Of a stretch of DNA of 31,824 bases, positions 3,464 through 28,098 are shown in pieces. Every line of letters starts with the position of its first letter. Positions within the stretch are counted from its first letter, which is position 1. This DNA comes from a virus, in the IMG/VR virus record IMGVR_UViG_3300020172_001373, positions 1 to 31,824 of that record; one strand, given 5' to 3'. The position numbers were made by a program, and so were the translations under genes. The notes below the pieces were generated by a model that was not told the DNA's origin, searched no databases, and worked only from the letters and a program-made list of their open reading frames with translations.

Positions 3464-3487
3464 ATGAGCAAATTAGGAGAATCCAAA

Positions 3488-4783
3488 ATGGAATCAACAC
3501 ACCCACAGACAGTTAGAAAATTGAAAGCCTATCAAATACAAAAAGATTGGGCTACCAATGATAGATGGAATGGGGTTAAAAGACCTTATACAGCAGAGGA
3601 TGTAGTGAATCTACAAGGTTCACAAGTTTATCCAGATCAATTCGCTGTCGACCAAGCCAATAAATTATGGAATTTATTGAACACAGAATCTTACGTAAAC
3701 ACCCTGGGCGCATTGACAGGTATGCAGGCCCTACAGCAGGTCAAAGCAGGACTCAAAGCCATATACCTTTCCGGATGGCAGGTAGCAGGTGATGCTAATC
3801 TAGCAGGTGAAATGTATCCCGATCAATCACTGTATCCCGCTGATTCAGTGCCTGCAGTAGTAAATAAAATCAATAATACATTCCGCAGAGCAGATCAGAT
3901 ACAGTGGATGGAAGGAGTAGGAGATAGAGATTTCTTCGCTCCTATTGTTGCTGATGCTGAAGCTGGATTTGGTGGAGTGTTAAATGCTTTTGAACTAATG
4001 AAGGCCATGATCCGTGCGGGCGCCGCAGGAGTTCATTTTGAAGATCAATTAGCGTCCGTGAAGAAATGTGGACATATGGGAGGAAAAGTTCTTGTACCAA
4101 CCAGAGAAGCAGTCAATAAACTTGTTGCCGCTCGTCTCGCTGCTGATGTTATGGGAGTTCCTACTCTTGTTATTGCTAGAACGGATGCCGAAGCCGGTGA
4201 TCTTATTACTTCAGATGTTGATAGCAATGACATTCCTTTTCTTACTGGTGAAAGAACTGTGGAGGGTTTCTATCGAACCCGAGCAGGATTCGATCAAGCA
4301 GTCAGCAGAGCCCTTGCCTACGCACCCTACGCAGATCTCGTATGGTGTGAAACAGGGAAACCCGACCTTGATTTCGCAAGAAGATTCGCAGAAGCAATCC
4401 ATAAAGAGTTTCCGGGCAAAATGCTAGCCTATAACTGCTCGCCTTCGTTTAACTGGAAGAAGAATCTCGACGACGCAACGATTGCCAAGTTCCAGCGCGA
4501 ACTAGGTGCAATGGGCTACAAATTCCAATTTATTACCTTAGCAGGATTCCATAATCTCAACAATGGTATGTTTGAATTGGCGCATGGTTATGCTCGTGAA
4601 GGTATGACAGCATTCGTTGAGTTACAAGAGCGTGAGTTCTCTAATGCTGCTCGAGGATTTGAAGCAGTCAAACATCAACGTGAAGTTGGTACAGGCTACT
4701 TCGACCGGGTTACTACTACTATTGAAGCAGACTCATCTACGCAGGCCTTAAAAGGCAGCACAGAGGAAGAACAATTTCATTAA
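3488..4783 (+). CDS. aceA: Isocitrate lyase
   Basis: 431 residues, full bacterial length. It would cleave isocitrate to succinate and glyoxylate, the first step of the glyoxylate shunt. The catalytic signature [14 protein letters not shown] is intact, and [17 protein letters not shown] and the ARTDAEA block match the substrate and Mg2+ sites; the C-terminal Asn-Cys-Ser-Pro-Ser-Phe-Asn-Trp is also kept. I chose the ATG at 3488 because TTAGGAGA lies at the right distance; an upstream in-frame ATG at 3464 lacks an SD. A T4 late promoter precedes it. The alpha/beta hydrolase gene follows after 1 nt. No malate synthase is in the window. Isocitrate lyase is rare as a phage metabolic gene. Confidence 0.97.
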
Positions 4784-6172: not shown

Positions 6173-6457
6173 TTATTTCTTAGATGCACCATTATTGACA
6201 AAAGCGTACATCTTTTCTGCAGCTTCAAGAACTTTGTCTAAACCTGGAAACTCAGGCATATCAACTTTAGATACGATCTGACCGGTTTTTTCATCGCGCT
6301 TAGTTGACATTTCCCAACCTTGCCACTTATAGCTGAACTCTTGTCCAACGATATCTTTGGCCATGTCAAGAATTTCTGTACGAATTTCGTAGCCGTTCTT
6401 GTTAAATTTGACTTCAGGTGCTTTAATTTCTGGTAAGTTTAATCCATTATTTGACAT
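6173..6457 (-). CDS. Small conserved-looking protein, function unknown
   Basis: 94 residues, charged, with a Pro-rich start (LPEIKAPEVKF) and a helical second half (ILDMAKDIVGQEF, KVLEAAEKMYAF); no membrane segment or catalytic motif. The leader is CACACACAAGGAGAA ending 5 nt before the ATG, a strong SD shared in form with the next upstream gene and with ahpC. It follows the 65-residue gene on the same strand by 35 nt and is probably cotranscribed. The pair looks weakly like phasin-type helical proteins, but I would not assign that. Confidence 0.75.
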   Translation of the reverse strand: MSNNGLNLPEIKAPEVKFNKNGYEIRTEILDMAKDIVGQEFSYKWQGWEMSTKRDEKTGQIVSKVDMPEFPGLDKVLEAAEKMYAFVNNGASKK

Positions 6458-6492
6458 AATTTTCTCCTTGTGTGTGTATGTCTATACTGCTG

Positions 6493-6690
6493 TTATTTCG
6501 CGGGTGCGAAATTCTTTACAAAAAGCTGGCTCATAAGTAATACATTGTTAGCAGAAGTTTTTAAAAAAGCTGTCTGCGCATCAATGACTTCGATGATACC
6601 TGCTTTGATTTTTTCATCAACTACGAATTTGTTGACGATCTGTTTTTTAGCGTTTTGAACGCCGTCGATAAAATATTCTGGTGTAAACAT
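6493..6690 (-). CDS. Small helical protein, function unknown
   Basis: 65 residues, almost wholly amphipathic helix after MFTPEYFIDGVQNAKK. The pattern (an early YF-x-D-x-VQN-x-KK, then a long helix with VVDEKIKAGIIEVIDAQTAF) is a little like phasins, but too short to claim. The leader holds repeated CA dinucleotides and AAGGAGAA, 4 nt before the ATG, so translation should be strong. Its own sigma-70 promoter lies about 28 nt upstream of the ATG. It heads a two-gene unit with the 94-residue gene. Confidence 0.75.
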   Translation of the reverse strand: MFTPEYFIDGVQNAKKQIVNKFVVDEKIKAGIIEVIDAQTAFLKTSANNVLLMSQLFVKNFAPAK

Positions 6691-20971: not shown

Positions 20972-21377
20972 AAAAATATTGTGGACATCTTTGGGATTCC
21001 TTAGTCTAGGTATGGCTTATATAGGAGTAGTTACTCCTGGTATTCCCTACAGTCCTTTCGTGGTCTTTGCCGCATACTGTTTTTCAAAAGGTTCAGAACG
21101 AATGCACCGATGGATCTACAATCATAAAATATTCGGACCGTTCCTTACTAATTGGAATGAGAAACGTGTGTTTCCTCAAAAGATGAAATATTTCATGATA
21201 GCGATGATGTCATTGAGTCTAATCCTGATGTATACAGGCGGCGTGAAACTGGTTGGTGTTATTTCAACAGCCGTATTCATGATGTTGGTTGCAACCTGGG
21301 CTTGGAGATATCCTAGCACTGTCGCAGAATATGATCGACGAACCGCCTCGGGAGAAAAGATAGGTTGGTTTAAATGA
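20961..21377 (+). CDS. DUF454 (YbaN-like) inner membrane protein
   Basis: 138 residues with an N-terminal hydrophobic pair (LWTSLGFLSLGMAYIGVVTP), then PFVVFAAYCFSKGSERMHRW, IYNHKIFGPFLTNWNEKRVF and two C-terminal membrane spans (about 74-112). This matches DUF454: LG-x-G-x-P..PF...A-x-F-x-(S/K)GS, followed by H-x-x-FG. The biological role of the family is unknown. Overlaps PAAR upstream and the first oxygenase downstream (4 nt). Confidence 0.85.
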   Translation: MQVKKILWTSLGFLSLGMAYIGVVTPGIPYSPFVVFAAYCFSKGSERMHRWIYNHKIFGPFLTNWNEKRVFPQKMKYFMIAMMSLSLILMYTGGVKLVGVISTAVFMMLVATWAWRYPSTVAEYDRRTASGEKIGWFK

Positions 21378-22009
21378 ACCATAGAGTACACGATCTTTTT
21401 TCTATCCCCTTATATCACAGTCGATTAAATCCGATCAATTCTTCTACATTAGAAAAACTTTTTAATTTAGAATGGGAAGATCCCGGCTATGATGATACTC
21501 CTCCGACGCATAAAGAAACTGCCGAAAGACATCTTTTAGATCGACCAGAGTTTGCCGAGCTCAGAAAAAACATACAATCTCATATAGATTTTTATGTCTA
21601 TGAGGTGTTAGGAGTGACTAAAGATCAACAGTGGAAAATCACTACTTCGTGGGTCAATAAGTCTGCTCCGGGCAACTATCATACCAATCACTGGCATAGT
21701 AATAGCTTAGTCAGTGGTGTTGCCTATCTCAGTGCAGACGAAAAAACTGGAGCTATCTGTTTTAATAAAGATAGAGGTCATAAAAATCTCTGGGGTGATA
21801 CTCTTAAAATAGATTTCGATAAACATACTGTTTATAATACAGAAGCGGTAGCCATACTTCCGATGATCGGCGATATACTTTTATTTCCATCTCTGCTAAA
21901 TCATAGTGTACTAACTAATGAATCAACAAATGATCGGTATAGTCTGGCATTCAATGTATTTCCTAGAGGAACGATAGGTCCTGGAGGAAACAGCGAACTT
22001 ACAGTATGA
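21374..22009 (+). CDS. 2OG-Fe(II) oxygenase-like protein, paralog 1
   Basis: 211 residues beginning VHDLFSIPLYHSRLNP. The jelly-roll core has NHWHSNSLVSGVAYLSAD, GAICFNKD, the FPSLLNHSV strand with the distal His, and DRYSLAFNVFPRG with the 2OG-binding Arg. This fits the TIGR02466/2OG-FeII_Oxy_5 family. The proximal metal motif reads H-x-H, not the H-x-D of most 2OG enzymes. It is joined by ATGA overlaps to two paralogs. Substrate unknown; phage homologs may hydroxylate proteins. Confidence 0.85.
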   Translation: MNHRVHDLFSIPLYHSRLNPINSSTLEKLFNLEWEDPGYDDTPPTHKETAERHLLDRPEFAELRKNIQSHIDFYVYEVLGVTKDQQWKITTSWVNKSAPGNYHTNHWHSNSLVSGVAYLSADEKTGAICFNKDRGHKNLWGDTLKIDFDKHTVYNTEAVAILPMIGDILLFPSLLNHSVLTNESTNDRYSLAFNVFPRGTIGPGGNSELTV

Positions 22010-22644
22010 ATCATTCTGTTATTCCTTTGTTTTCGATACCCCTGTTTAAATCAAATCTTGGAACATTAAATCCAATTACTAAAGCGTGGTTATCAAAATT
22101 AGAATTTCTACCTCAGAGAACAGGGCACGACGGTACCGATGAGGAACTACCTCTCAATCAACGCGGTATGCACATTCTTGATAAACCTCAGTTGAGCAAT
22201 TTAAAAAAACAGATAAAAGAAACTATAGATTTTTTTGTACACGAGATACTGATGGTCGACGATCATATCACATTCGAAATACAGACGAGTTGGGTAAATC
22301 AAGTAGATTCTCAAAATACTGTTCCGTCCCACGGACATAATAACTCCATGATCAGCGGCGTTTACTATATCGAGACCAGCGTAGATTCTGCTCCGCTATT
22401 ATTTGAAAAAAATTATCTTTATACTAATCTGTTTCATAGAACTGTGTTGCCCACCTTTAAAGAAAAAAATCACTTTAATACAGAAACTATGATAATATCT
22501 CCTATGCCAGGTGATATCTTTCTTTTTCCATCCCATCTAGAACATTCTGTTCCTGAGGGATTTGGCCCTGATCGCCTTAGTTTAGCATTTAATTGTTTTG
22601 CTCGGGGAGACTTTGGGTTAGGGACGGATAATCTAAAAATATGA
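22006..22644 (+). CDS. 2OG-Fe(II) oxygenase-like protein, paralog 2
   Basis: 212 residues, same plan as its neighbours: VIPLFSIPLFKSNLG start, PSHGHNNSMISGVYYIETS core with H-x-H, FPSHLEHSV with the distal His, and DRLSLAFNCFARG. It is the most diverged of the three: the G-x-I-x-F turn after the core is changed (SAPLLFEKN). ATGA overlaps on both sides. Whether all three are active or one acts as a partner cannot be seen. Confidence 0.83.
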   Translation: MNHSVIPLFSIPLFKSNLGTLNPITKAWLSKLEFLPQRTGHDGTDEELPLNQRGMHILDKPQLSNLKKQIKETIDFFVHEILMVDDHITFEIQTSWVNQVDSQNTVPSHGHNNSMISGVYYIETSVDSAPLLFEKNYLYTNLFHRTVLPTFKEKNHFNTETMIISPMPGDIFLFPSHLEHSVPEGFGPDRLSLAFNCFARGDFGLGTDNLKI

Positions 22645-23285
22645 ATTTTACAGTAACACCGTTGTTTGCTATTCCGCTGTATCAAAGCCTTGTGGAAGCA
22701 ATCGATCAACAAGACATAGATTTTATAAAATCTCTCTCTTATGAGCGTATGCCGGCCGACAACGGAGATTACACTGTTTCCAAAAATGTCTTAGACATAC
22801 CGCAGCTCTGTGATCTAAAATCAAAAATACAGAAAAAAATTGATCATTTTGTCTATGAAATACTAGACTGCGATAAGACTGTGAAATTTGAAATCCAGAA
22901 CAGTTGGGCTAATCGACATGCCAACACAGATTTCGCCGGATCTCATAGACACAGCAACAGTCTAATCAGCGGAGTGTTTTATCTCGATGTGGCGCCAGAC
23001 ACCGGAGCAATCATCTTTCAAAAGGACAAAAGCTACTATAATCTTTGGACTGATACTCTAGAAGTGGGGTTCGACTATCAAACACACGAAGATCAAAGTC
23101 GTTTGAATGTTTTCAATGCAGATGCTTGGGGAATATATCCTAAACAAAACGAAATGGTGTTGTTTCCTTCTCTGTTATATCATTCTGTTAGTGAAAATCT
23201 TTCTGATAAGATTCGGTACAGCCTGGCATTTAATGTATTTCCTAGAGGAAATCTAGGAGGAACTATCAATAGGATAAAAATATAA
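22641..23285 (+). CDS. 2OG-Fe(II) oxygenase-like protein, paralog 3
   Basis: 214 residues: VTPLFAIPLYQSLVE start, GSHRHSNSLISGVFYLDV core with H-x-H, GAIIFQKDKSYYNLWTDTLE, FPSLLYHSV with distal His and IRYSLAFNVFPRG. It is closer to paralog 1 than to paralog 2 in these blocks (shared N-LW-DTL, shared FNVFPRG). The next gene follows after 1 nt. Family as for the others. Confidence 0.85.
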   Translation: MNFTVTPLFAIPLYQSLVEAIDQQDIDFIKSLSYERMPADNGDYTVSKNVLDIPQLCDLKSKIQKKIDHFVYEILDCDKTVKFEIQNSWANRHANTDFAGSHRHSNSLISGVFYLDVAPDTGAIIFQKDKSYYNLWTDTLEVGFDYQTHEDQSRLNVFNADAWGIYPKQNEMVLFPSLLYHSVSENLSDKIRYSLAFNVFPRGNLGGTINRIKI

Positions 23286-23286
23286 C

Positions 23287-23544
23287 ATGGCCAAAATAAC
23301 TCTAGACGAACTAATAGATATCGCATTCGCACATGAAGAAGGTGATCCCATAGACTGGGGAGTATTTGTCAAAGGACAAGAACAGTCTATGCGTATGATC
23401 GCCGCCAGTATCCTTGAACAGTTTGATAAAGAAACGATCACTGATGCAGATCGACTGATTTTGCTAGCTACTATAACCAAATTAGTTACTGAAAACATGA
23501 TTCTCCATTCGAGACTCTTGACAGAGAAGCAAAAAGATAGTTAA
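23287..23544 (+). CDS. 85-residue helical protein, function unknown
   Basis: Acidic and helical, starting MAKITLDELIDIAFAHEEGD, with PIDWGVFVKGQEQSMRMIAA and a second helical region (ITDADRLILLATITKLVTEN). No domain recognised. It follows the oxygenase trio after 1 nt and ends just before the tmRNA; the probable tmRNA promoter lies across its last codons. Confidence 0.7.
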   Translation: MAKITLDELIDIAFAHEEGDPIDWGVFVKGQEQSMRMIAASILEQFDKETITDADRLILLATITKLVTENMILHSRLLTEKQKDS

Positions 23545-23546
23545 AT
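23518..23546 (+). promoter_or_regulatory. Probable promoter of the permuted tmRNA
   Basis: TTGACA (23518-23523) and TTAAAT (23541-23546) are 17 nt apart. The same -10 region contains GTTAAATA, a weak late-promoter match. The predicted start is just before the acceptor piece. Confidence 0.5.
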
Positions 23547-23548
23547 AA

Positions 23549-23617
23549 CTATATTGTTGTAATCCCTTCAAAACGAAGGCATGTTGGACCCGGGTTCGAC
23601 CCCCGGCAGGTCCACCA
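23549..23617 (+). ncRNA. ssrA: Permuted tmRNA, acceptor (3') piece
   Basis: The piece has a CCTTC/GAAGG hairpin (23565-23579), a perfect T arm (CCGGG-TTCGACC-CCCGG, 23590-23606) and the 3' acceptor strand CAGGTCC, discriminator A and an encoded CCA ending at 23617. It lacks its own D arm, anticodon arm and 5' acceptor strand. Those come from the downstream coding piece: GGGCCTG at 23704 pairs with CAGGTCC over seven positions, with G-U as the third pair, the main alanine identity element. TGTTG (23582-23586) can pair with CAACA (23745-23749) as part of P2. The order acceptor-first is diagnostic of a circularly permuted ssrA, whose product is two-piece after processing. The 5' boundary is approximate. 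Confidence 0.9.
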
Positions 23618-23630
23618 TAAGGAGATTAGT

Positions 23631-23702
23631 ATGGATGACTTACAAAGATTTGCGTTAGGGTTCGCTTTCGTTGTTGTAATCTTCGCTCTAGTCCTTTTAT
23701 GA
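23631..23702 (+). CDS. 23-residue membrane peptide inside the tmRNA intervening segment
   Basis: An ATG with SD AAGGAG (7 nt away) opens a 23-codon frame whose TGA stop ends one base before the tmRNA coding piece. The peptide begins MDDLQRFALGF and ends in a run of 12 hydrophobic residues (AFVVVIFALVLL), a single membrane helix with a short charged head. It fills 72 of the 86 nt between the two mature tmRNA pieces. Good SD, length and fit make translation plausible; the role (lysis, toxin or coupling of tmRNA processing to translation) is unknown. Confidence 0.5.
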   Translation: MDDLQRFALGFAFVVVIFALVLL

Positions 23703-23703
23703 T

Positions 23704-23915
23704 GGGCCTGTATTGGTTTCGACAGCGTGAGATAGTCTAGACGGCAACACGAGAGACGACTGACGTTATCAGCGTAAATCCATAAATGCAAACGAAGATG
23801 CATTTGACTTCGCAGCAATGAGCTTCACTGGCAATTCTGTTGCCAATGACAGCAGATTTGCTCTAGCTGCCTAAGAAACAGCAGGTCCGGGGTAACTATA
23901 CCTTGTAACCCAAAA
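23704..23915 (+). ncRNA. ssrA: Permuted tmRNA, coding (5') piece
   Basis: Starts GGGCCTG (acceptor strand), followed by the tmRNA D-loop signature TTGGTTTCGACAG. The resume codon is GCA at 23788, and the tag frame runs 28 codons to TAA at 23872-23874. The tag begins ANEDAFDFAA and ends ANDSRFALAA, with MSFTGNSV between; the ALAA end is the protease-recognised type. tmRNA rescues stalled ribosomes and marks the broken proteins. A GGCAA/TTGCC hairpin lies in the middle of the tag region, and GGTA/TACC after it. The 3' end is estimated, just before the terminator. Phage-borne tmRNAs are rare. Confidence 0.9.
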
Positions 23916-23921
23916 TAGTAG

Positions 23922-23948
23922 AAGGAGCTTTCGGGCTCCTTTCTTTTT
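23922..23948 (+). terminator. Rho-independent terminator of the tmRNA
   Basis: AAGGAGC and GCTCCTT pair around TTTCGG, followed by TTCTTTTT. Confidence 0.9.
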
Positions 23949-23999
23949 GATATTGAAAAAACCTATTATCTTTATTAAAAAATATTTAGAAAAAATCTA

Positions 24000-25914: not shown

Positions 25915-26304
25915 ATGTCAATGCATCTCGAAGGACCGTGGCTATCTACCACTGGCAAGAAAAAAGGCAAGAAGAAATTTGCCAGCGCCGAACACGCAAG
26001 AAAAGCCAGAGAATTAGACGAGTCGTGGAAAGACCTACAGAAACGCTGGGGTGTTGAATTAGAAGAAAAGAAACGTCGTCGCGCCTTGGCCGGTGATACG
26101 TGGACTCCTGAACCAAAAAGTTACAGAGGCAGTGACGAACCAAAGATTCCTAGTTTACCATTCACTGGTGGTCCTTGTACAAAAGGCCCCGAAAAGGTCT
26201 ACACCGGTACTAAGATTAAAGGCATTGGTACTATGCATAAATCAAATGCAGTACCGATTTTTTCGGACGAAGAGGCACAGGATATTGCCAAAATGAGGCG
26301 ATAA
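25915..26304 (+). CDS. 129-residue basic protein, conserved in marine phages
   Basis: Starts MSMHLEGPWLSTTGKKKGKK, then a charged helix (AEHARKARELDESWKDLQKR), a linker with YRGSDEPKIPSLPFTGGP and a conserved-looking end (GTMHKSNAVPIFSDEEAQDI). I recall closely similar proteins in many marine T4-like phages, all without function. Strongly basic N-terminal half suggests contact with nucleic acid or ribosome. It has a perfect sigma-70 promoter and a good SD, so it is probably expressed early and strongly. Confidence 0.82.
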   Translation: MSMHLEGPWLSTTGKKKGKKKFASAEHARKARELDESWKDLQKRWGVELEEKKRRRALAGDTWTPEPKSYRGSDEPKIPSLPFTGGPCTKGPEKVYTGTKIKGIGTMHKSNAVPIFSDEEAQDIAKMRR

Positions 26305-26317
26305 TCTTCGGTTTTCG

Positions 26318-26326
26318 TGCTATAAT
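26318..26326 (+). promoter_or_regulatory. Extended -10 promoter for the structured RNA
   Basis: TGCTATAAT: a perfect -10 hexamer with the TGn extension, no matching -35. Predicted start near 26333. Confidence 0.6.
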
Positions 26327-26330
26327 AGGG

Positions 26331-26582
26331 AAAGTATGCTATATATAACTACGTTTCGCAAAGAAACTGAGATAGTAGATCCGAAGTATGTCACAAGCTG
26401 AAAAGGATCCGCGGTCTTGGCCAATGAGAAACCCGTGAGATTCGGGCGGTCAAGTTCGCCAAAGGTAACAGAAGGTTATGAGACTCTGTTGCTGATGGAG
26501 ACAAACTACACGAACCCAGGGTTCTTTCTAGAGCCTCGTGAAGTTTACTCCCTGTAATGTAATGTAGTTGAATATCACTACA
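26331..26582 (+). ncRNA. Highly structured non-coding RNA or long 5' leader
   Basis: About 250 nt without a credible ORF and full of pairing. Helices seen: CTAC-GTTTC/GAAAC..GTAG (26349-26378); ATCC/GGAT (26379-26408); CTTGGCC/GGTCAAG (26416-26454) enclosing CCCG/CGGG; GTAACAGA/TCTGTTGC (26465-26492); a tiered hairpin GGAG, AAACT, CACGA, GGTTC with GAGCC, TCGTG, AGTTT, CTCC (26497-26551); and TGTAGT/ACTACA (26563-26582). It does not match tmRNA, 6S, RNase P or group I intron cores by eye. There is no T-rich terminator, and the lysis hydrolase starts 20 nt later, so it may be its regulatory leader. Boundaries approximate. Confidence 0.65.
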
Positions 26583-26601
26583 CCAAATGAAAGGAGGACT
26601 T

Positions 26602-27165
26602 ATGGAAAAGTCGTTTAAATTCGTATCCTATTTTATAGGACTAGTTGTTGTGGCTATGTTAGTACAGAATATAACTGCTACTAAATTTCGTACACTAAAA
26701 GAAAAAACTGGTTATTTCAGTCAAGACATCGTGTCTATCCAGACACGTGAAAAACAGTTAGATTGTCTTGCGATCAACATTTATCGAGAAGCAGGTTATG
26801 AGCCATTCGAAGGTAAGGTTGCGGTTGCACAAGTTACAATGAATCGTGTAACAGCCGGCAAGTTCGGCAGTGATGTCTGTGGAGTTGTATATCAACGTAA
26901 CGTGTTTATGGAAAAAGTCGTTTGCCAATTCTCATGGGCCTGCGATCAAGTACACAGAAACAAACCAATCGGCAAGGAGGCCTACAATGAAAGTTATGCA
27001 GTTGCGAAAAAGGTTCTTTTGGAAGGATTCCGCTTGGATGTTCTCAAAGATGCTCTCTATTATCATGCCACCTATGTCAACCCAAGATGGCCGCATGAAA
27101 AGATTGGACAAATAGGACAACATATTTTTTATAAAGAGAAAGGTACAAGATATGCTAAACTTTAA
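26602..27165 (+). CDS. SleB-like cell wall hydrolase, probable endolysin
   Basis: 187 residues from the ATG at 26602, chosen because AAAGGAGG lies in front; an upstream in-frame ATG at 26587 lacks an SD. A hydrophobic N-terminal helix (SYFIGLVVVAMLVQNI) is a signal anchor, perhaps of the signal-arrest-release kind. The Hydrolase_2 (SleB) domain follows: CLAINIYREAGYEPFEGKVA with the catalytic Glu, VAQVTMNRV, CQFSWACD, ALYYHATYVNPRW and GQHIFYK. It should cleave peptidoglycan glycan strands for host lysis. It overlaps the next small membrane protein by 14 nt. Confidence 0.9.
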   Translation: MEKSFKFVSYFIGLVVVAMLVQNITATKFRTLKEKTGYFSQDIVSIQTREKQLDCLAINIYREAGYEPFEGKVAVAQVTMNRVTAGKFGSDVCGVVYQRNVFMEKVVCQFSWACDQVHRNKPIGKEAYNESYAVAKKVLLEGFRLDVLKDALYYHATYVNPRWPHEKIGQIGQHIFYKEKGTRYAKL

Positions 27166-27475
27166 AATACCGGTTGAATTTGATCTAGAAAAACTCAAGA
27201 CATTTGTCAAAGAAAAGTTCAGCACTATCTCAGCTGAAACTGTAGGGTGGCTAGCAGTAATAGTTTTACATGCCTCGACAATTCCTAGTCTTCTAGCGGT
27301 AATGGCTGGTCTAACTGATCGATTGCCAGGAGTAGATCTAGTACTGCTAGTTTGGACTGGACTTACTCTCCTATTTGTTAGAGCTGCTATCCAAAAAGAC
27401 ATGCTGAATATTGTGACTATCGGTCTAGGATTCATAATTCAGGCTGTAATGATGTCTCTGATATTTTTCAAATAA
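27152..27475 (+). CDS. 107-residue membrane protein, candidate holin
   Basis: An amphipathic, charged N terminus (FDLEKLKTFVKEKF) is followed by three hydrophobic segments: about 32-52, 61-78 and 86-106 (LNIVTIGLGFIIQAVMMSLI). Three spans in a protein of about 100 residues with a charged end is class I holin topology. It overlaps the endolysin gene by 14 nt. No family signature is recognised, so holin is an inference from place and topology. Overlaps the next oxygenase gene by 1 nt. Confidence 0.7.
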   Translation: MLNFKIPVEFDLEKLKTFVKEKFSTISAETVGWLAVIVLHASTIPSLLAVMAGLTDRLPGVDLVLLVWTGLTLLFVRAAIQKDMLNIVTIGLGFIIQAVMMSLIFFK

Positions 27476-28098
27476 TGAAGTTTCATATCATTGACGGTCT
27501 GCTAGAGAATGATCTAGCAGATCATCTAGAAGGTTTTTTTCTAGGAGACTCAGTAAATTGGAATTACAATCCTTTTACCACAAGGATTGGTAGATTATAC
27601 GGAAACTTAGATTACCCAAATATAATCGAAACACATCAATTTACTCATAGTCTAGTCAAAGATGATCAAAATGTCAGTGCGAACCCAGAAATTACCGGAT
27701 TGACAAAATCGATAATAACTGCTGTCCAAAATCAAACTGATTTTCAATTTCAGTCGGTTCATAGATTGAAAGCCAATATGTTGATGCAAGGCGATTACAA
27801 TATTGAACAGCATCATCCTCCGCATTACGATACTGTAAGTCCAAATCATTGGAGTATGGTGTACTATGTCAATCGATCGGACGGTCCTACTAGATTATTT
27901 GATAAATCGACAGAAAAAGATTTTGAATCTGCCGAAGATACAAATGATTTCTATTTTGGAATGGAATGCATAGAAAAGATAGAACCAAGAAAAAACAGAG
28001 CTGTTATTTTTCCTTCTAATCTTTTACACGCCAGCGCCTGCCCAATCCAATTTAAACGCAGAGTAGTTTTAAACTTTGTTTTGAAATCTAAAGGTTGA
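27475..28098 (+). CDS. 2OG-Fe(II) oxygenase
   Basis: 207 residues, a different subfamily from the three at 21374-23285. The metal site is standard: HHPPHYDTVSP gives His-x-Asp, and LLHASACP the distal His, followed by the 2OG-binding Arg in KRRVVLNFV. The usual double-stranded beta-helix strands lie between (MVYYVNRSDGPTRLF, AVIFPSN). Phage members of this group are often called prolyl 4-hydroxylase-like, but the substrate is unknown. Its end overlaps the -35 of the lipoprotein promoter. Confidence 0.87.
   Translation: MKFHIIDGLLENDLADHLEGFFLGDSVNWNYNPFTTRIGRLYGNLDYPNIIETHQFTHSLVKDDQNVSANPEITGLTKSIITAVQNQTDFQFQSVHRLKANMLMQGDYNIEQHHPPHYDTVSPNHWSMVYYVNRSDGPTRLFDKSTEKDFESAEDTNDFYFGMECIEKIEPRKNRAVIFPSNLLHASACPIQFKRRVVLNFVLKSKG

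Follow-up and report, generated by a model that had tools for sequence, protein, structure and literature searches.

A conserved structured RNA abutting the Shine-Dalgarno sequence of phage lysin genes, a candidate leader gating lysin translation

The yield of a phage depends on when it lyses its host, and this timing is commonly attributed to proteins: holins, antiholins and released membrane-tethered endolysins. RNA structure at a lysis gene is known from phage T4, where a structure at the start site of gene e reduces the synthesis of lysozyme by a factor of about 100, an effect that late transcripts avoid (PMC3014915). The late promoter of T4 is TATAAATA (PMC3014915). In the methylophage Melnitz, a glutamine (glnA) riboswitch was assigned to ssrA, with an involvement in lysis raised by the authors as a speculation (PMC9004378). 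GOLLD RNAs, often longer than 800 nt and located near tRNA islands, rise in expression during lysis (PMC12286853).

Here, we describe an RNA element that lies directly in front of lysin genes on uncultivated virus contigs. As in T4 gene e, structured RNA occupies the region where a phage lysis gene starts, a late promoter (for the element, a candidate one) is nearby, and the likely purpose is to avoid premature lysis (PMC3014915). The gene e structure is a simple local stem, and late transcripts lack its 5′ strand (PMC3014915), whereas the element is a multi-helix RNA of ~235 nt that sits downstream of a late-type box and is predicted to be part of the late transcript. The Melnitz riboswitch, too, is an RNA element of an aquatic, T4-like phage that has a permuted tmRNA (PMC9004378), but its assignment is to ssrA rather than to the leader of a lysin gene. 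GOLLD and ROOL are likewise large conserved phage-encoded RNAs, but they are far longer, are found near tRNA islands and, in the case of GOLLD, do not abut a Shine-Dalgarno sequence (PMC12286853); with a leader length of 231-282 nt (median 249 over 78 representatives) and no Rfam match, the element has neither the several-hundred-nucleotide length nor the family match of that group. With translational riboswitches as a class it shares the design of a structured 5′ leader, with a candidate anti-Shine-Dalgarno strand that could pair with either the body or the Shine-Dalgarno sequence; it matches no riboswitch in Rfam in sequence or structure.

A structured RNA in the gap before the lysin gene

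The window (the whole virus record analyzed, 31,824 bases) derives from a phage, its NrdA and PAAR-type genes matching PHROGs. The element and its flanking signals are on the + strand, in the gap that separates the gene at 25915-26304 (phrog_27048, function unassigned) from a SleB-type lysin gene. An earlier note made from the sequence had described this gap as free of ORFs, and we find none of at least 50 aa between the stop at 26304 and the lysin start. A protein-coding reading was dropped for this reason, together with the compensatory changes and the indels of all lengths seen among homologues. A permuted (two-piece) phage tmRNA is present at 23525-23965, ~2.4 kb upstream of the element, and a tmRNA is found inside the available flank of 76 of the 274 element-bearing loci; searched as a possible tmRNA or tRNA, the element itself gave no match, ARAGORN and Rfam finding solely the separate tmRNA.

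Other genes around the locus deserve mention. By eye, the ORF at 3464-4783 is isocitrate lyase-like, which is unusual for a phage, and three tandem similar ORFs at 21374-23285 are 2OG-Fe(II) oxygenase-like; a further ORF of the latter type, at 27475-28098, was domain-searched. Four loci (L100, L136, L138 and L152) carry extra ORFs inserted just 5′ of the element, which is separated there from the phrog_27048-type gene by 748-816 nt; by eye, these ORFs resemble HNH-type endonucleases.

We report that positions 26353-26586 encode a structured RNA of ~235 nt with helices P1 to P7, matched by its covariance model with 249.9 bits over 26338-26586. At least six helices had been proposed in the earlier note, with a start at 26331; the helices are borne out, and the start moves to near 26353, where the conserved RNA begins. 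Single-sequence folding is only mildly unusual: the + strand reaches a minimum free energy of -72.3 kcal/mol, compared with -58.9 ± 4.7 for shuffled sequences (z -2.84, with 2 of 200 shuffles as good), and the - strand is less unusual (z -1.91). The case rests instead on conservation and covariation.

We built a model of 57 pairs by hand, converted it into a covariance model and counted pairs over 95 distinct sequences in an alignment fitted to the structure. In these, 91.7% of pair cells are paired, and changes on both sides occur in 29 of the 57 pairs (487 cells). The covariation score is 0.272, compared with 0.113 ± 0.003 for shuffled alignments (0/500 shuffles); with slid partners it does not exceed 0.059. 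To take account of phylogeny, we used our own script, built on the R-scape principle but distinct from R-scape, in which substitutions are re-dealt along the tree. Against this null, eight model pairs in P2, P5 and P7 are significant in the fitted alignment, and significant pairs outside the model are confined to the P3/P4 region, where subtypes differ by about one base. An unfitted MAFFT alignment evaluated against the phylogenetic null still yields the P2 pairs 26380:26407, 26381:26406 and 26382:26405 and the P7 pair 26566:26579 (E ≤0.025). The covariation among homologues for which the earlier note had called is therefore present, and the absence that would have spoken against the RNA did not occur. 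Applied to the plain MAFFT alignment, RNAalifold suggested the long-range helices GUUUC:GAAAC(CCG) and AAGAU:GUCUU, in columns that are nearly invariant and so uninformative.

The predicted 5′ end is formed by P1 (26353-26367), a GUUUC-GCAAA-GAAAC hairpin with a nearly invariant stem, a variable loop and 99.8% of cells paired. P2 (26378-26409) joins 26378-26382 to 26405-26409 (97.9% paired) and covaries, as given above for the unfitted alignment. In P3 (26411-26459), positions 26411-26413 pair with 26457-26459 and 26416-26422 with 26448-26454 (83-99% of cells paired), enclosing a conserved AAUGAGAAA bulge as well as P4 (26432-26435 with 26443-26446). The conserved core of P3/P4 reads GCG(A)GUCUUGGCC...AACCCG, and its 3′ strand differs among subtypes. 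P5 (26464-26493) is a variable hairpin in which 26471:26486 and 26472:26485 are significant in the fitted alignment and the inner helix is 88% paired. The four-tier hairpin at 26497-26551 singled out in the earlier note is real and corresponds to P6: its base, GGAG at 26497-26500 with CUCC at 26548-26551, is nearly invariant over the 95 sequences, and its upper tiers show changes on both sides. P7 (26563-26582; 26563-26568 with 26577-26582) has the strongest covariation, at 26566:26579, 26567:26578 and 26568:26577. P1, P4 and the base of P6 barely vary and are supported by conservation, not by covariation. Subtype linkage hints at a contact of the P4 loop (UAUUUU) with P6 (AAAGUA), and the complementarity is not seen in other subtypes.

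The earlier note recognized no known RNA class, which holds for Rfam 15: at the gathering score there is no match over the element in the window, and a lax-filter search with the window copy and three other copies returned chance matches only. The glnA RNA, an Rfam-type motif, does not match either. By Rfam 15 and the libraries searched, the element is thus a new RNA family, of a known kind, the structured cis-regulatory leader. Homologues were gathered via the lysin, the upstream gene and DNA patterns inside the element. The profile search yields 274 element-bearing loci, a count in which many entries are overlapping stretches of one and the same contig; the distinct sets comprise 98 full-length copies (first collection), the 95 aligned and 115 with sufficient downstream sequence. 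Each of 12 large records searched whole (91-372 kb) contains exactly one copy. All copies are on uncultivated virus contigs, among which chimeras and fragments occur; in one fragmentary locus (L268), the element lacks its end and the lysin its start. Searches of bacterial genomes gave seven pattern matches, none a true copy by profile HMM or covariance model, and those of INPHARED phages and PLSDB plasmids merely Shine-Dalgarno-like stretches or chance similarity. Relatives of the upstream gene are present in phages PhiW-14, ACP17, C48C1 and BUCT-ZZ01, and the element is absent from the regions examined there.

Lysin genes and promoter at either end of the element

The 3′ end of the element leads directly into AAAGGAG in 77 of the 78 representatives and into AGGAG in the remaining one, and the AUG follows after 5-9 nt. 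In the window, this Shine-Dalgarno sequence (AAAGGAGG, 26590-26597) is followed by a gene at 26602-27165 for a SleB-type cell-wall hydrolase (Pfam Hydrolase_2, E 3.6e-25; PHROG endolysin) with an N-terminal hydrophobic segment. The earlier note was right to place the element against the endolysin Shine-Dalgarno sequence; the listed ORF begins at 26587, where many homologues have no start codon, and translation likely starts at ATG 26602 behind AAAGGAGG.

A cell-wall lytic gene lies downstream in 114 of the 115 distinct copies, of SleB type (Hydrolase_2) in 103 and of RlpA type (PF03330 DPBB match, 9e-22) in 11. The two kinds of enzyme are unrelated, and the upstream genes differ too, that of the window occurring in 0 of the 11 RlpA copies. 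In L292, one of these 11, as in L173, a gene for a small secreted protein precedes the RlpA-type gene. The exception is L182, where a gene that looks TnpB-like by eye has inserted between the element and the SleB gene, with loss of the 3′ half of P7. Because both RlpA- and SleB-type genes follow the RNA and the upstream gene differs, the RNA tracks the lysis enzyme as a function and not a single gene family or neighborhood. An N-terminal hydrophobic stretch is present in each of the 110 lysins checked, as expected for enzymes that are exported or membrane-tethered, which we predict these to be. Such lysins reach the cell wall without a holin, which makes translational control of the lysin plausible.

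Sister loci with more distant SleB lysins (mostly 50-60% identity) do not have the element. Many have a second, unrelated candidate leader of ~95-130 nt, extending from a TATATATT-like box to UCCAGCGUAAAGGAG, as in L095 (~6390-6570) and likewise in L087, L091, L099, L109, L114, L122, L133 and L150. By inspection, its hairpins visibly compensate, e.g., GGUACUAGCGAUACC / GGCACUAGCGAUGCC / GGUGGUAGCGACACC. A structured leader ahead of the lysin gene thus appears to recur with a different RNA, the second one being a candidate.

At the 5′ end, about 70 of the 76 distinct upstream regions have a TATAWA box whose start lies 10-14 nt ahead of P1. In the window it is TATATATA (26340-26347), a candidate late promoter resembling that of T4 (PMC3014915), with a predicted transcript start at ~26353. 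A gp55-like late sigma factor (phrog_234, related to that of T4) is encoded in 6 of the 12 large records, namely all six above 200 kb, and in 0 of 14 control genomes. Because both the TATA box and a late sigma factor are present, a late transcript probably begins with this RNA. The extended -10 sequence on which the earlier note relied does exist (TGCTATAAT, 26318-26326), but it occurs in 13 of the 76 upstream regions, and we rejected it as the main promoter for this lack of conservation; the conserved signal is the TATA box, and the extended -10 is probably secondary. Over the same 76 regions, a T tract ~27 nt 5′ of the TATA box is also conserved (-40 to -37 from P1; ~26313-26316 in the window) and may be part of the promoter.

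How the leader could act

The element combines features of structured leaders: compensatory changes within a conserved structure and a constant position before one functional class of genes. In our reading, it is the 5′ leader of a late lysis transcript and acts in cis to gate how the exported lysin is translated; we give this reading a probability of roughly 60%. Leader status is well supported; the switch described below, and any ligand, we infer. Of the long control leader for lysis timing envisaged in the earlier note, the leader is upheld by the fixed abutment on the Shine-Dalgarno sequence, the single copy per record and the 114 of 115 lytic genes downstream, and timing is a candidate role. 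No terminator-like site was found on the + strand, in agreement with the note and compatible with co-transcription of leader and gene.

Promoter use, the effect on translation, switching and any effector are predictions from sequence. Transcription from the T4-late-type promoter TATATATA would start the mRNA at about P1, and the mRNA would fold into P1-P7 and end at the Shine-Dalgarno sequence of the exported cell-wall lysin. Acting in cis, the leader would hold back or tune lysin translation, so that an enzyme able to cross the membrane unaided would be kept from killing the host too early. The shared strand of the proposed switch would be CUCCC (26548-26552), a candidate anti-Shine-Dalgarno with two possible pairings. 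In the ON state, CUCC would pair with GGAG at the base of P6 and leave the Shine-Dalgarno sequence free; in the OFF state, it would pair with AAAGGAG, with P7 in between, and hide it. The choice between the two would fall to the P1-P6 body, possibly together with a ligand or protein that it binds.

In predicted ensembles of 78 leaders, CUCC pairs with the P6 GGAG with a mean probability of 0.67 and with the Shine-Dalgarno sequence with one of 0.28. When both states were enforced on 103 distinct sequences, the median difference was 1.9 kcal/mol in favor of P6 (-1.9) and 75% lay within 3 kcal/mol, a closeness that is partly automatic and not strong evidence because both partners contain GGAG. 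That CUCC has two possible partners in 103/103 modeled sequences thus indicates possibility, not function. A nearly invariant GGAG/CUCC base amid changing neighboring tiers fits a strand with two obligate partners; P1 and P4, which are as invariant and have no obvious switch, count against this argument.

What would set the switch divides the readings. A riboswitch proper, in which P1-P6 form a small-molecule aptamer and a ligand sets the choice between P6 and the Shine-Dalgarno sequence, is a sub-case of the gating leader that we hold tentatively: size, the invariant unpaired core and the possible anti-Shine-Dalgarno strand shared with the body are as in translational riboswitches, but the downstream genes are non-metabolic and hence hint at no ligand, and a protein-bound leader would look alike. 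In the latter, a phage or host protein (e.g., a late-stage repressor or a ribosomal protein) would block or allow initiation. Simple protein operators usually have less extensive invariant regions than those seen here, and there is no candidate protein, which makes this reading rather unlikely in our view; the architecture would be identical, and T4 regulates several genes via proteins that bind translation-initiation regions (PMC3014915).

Other explanations dispense with a gate of this kind. A 5′ hairpin and compact fold could passively, without any regulation, shield the late lysin mRNA from decay or maintain an open standby site for ribosomes, and P1 would indeed occupy the extreme 5′ end of the transcript; stability requires neither ~235 nt of specific, near-invariant sequence nor an exclusive association with lysis genes, and we consider this unlikely. 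A device of the T4 gene e type, in which structure blocks translation of early read-through transcripts and late transcripts start inside it and escape, would suit a lysis gene in T4-like phages with a late-type promoter nearby. It is very improbable, because that arrangement has the late promoter inside or downstream of the inhibitory 5′ strand, whereas here the TATA box precedes P1 and late transcripts would carry the whole element. Least probable of all is a discrete trans-acting RNA merely located in the lysis operon, of which the earlier note had considered a processed form. Its size, high degree of structure and own promoter-like box would suit such an RNA, but the missing terminator, the constant spacing to the Shine-Dalgarno sequence and AUG, and the way it follows the lytic gene across gene families argue against it; the sole free-standing copy is that of L182, split from its lysin by the transposon-like insertion, and the proposal is left without support.

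Returning to the gating leader, it is conceivable, if somewhat doubtful, that the element represents a new class of ligand-gated leader RNAs that time lysis, sensing a host metabolite or physiological state late in infection and freeing the Shine-Dalgarno sequence of the exported lysin only under conditions that favor bursting. The many sequences, the covariance model and the defined alternative pairings make the idea directly testable. Taken together, an RNA of ~235 nt that has been kept with the lysis gene despite a swap to an unrelated enzyme, in phage records of up to 372 kb, points to RNA-level control of exported lysins in large phages.
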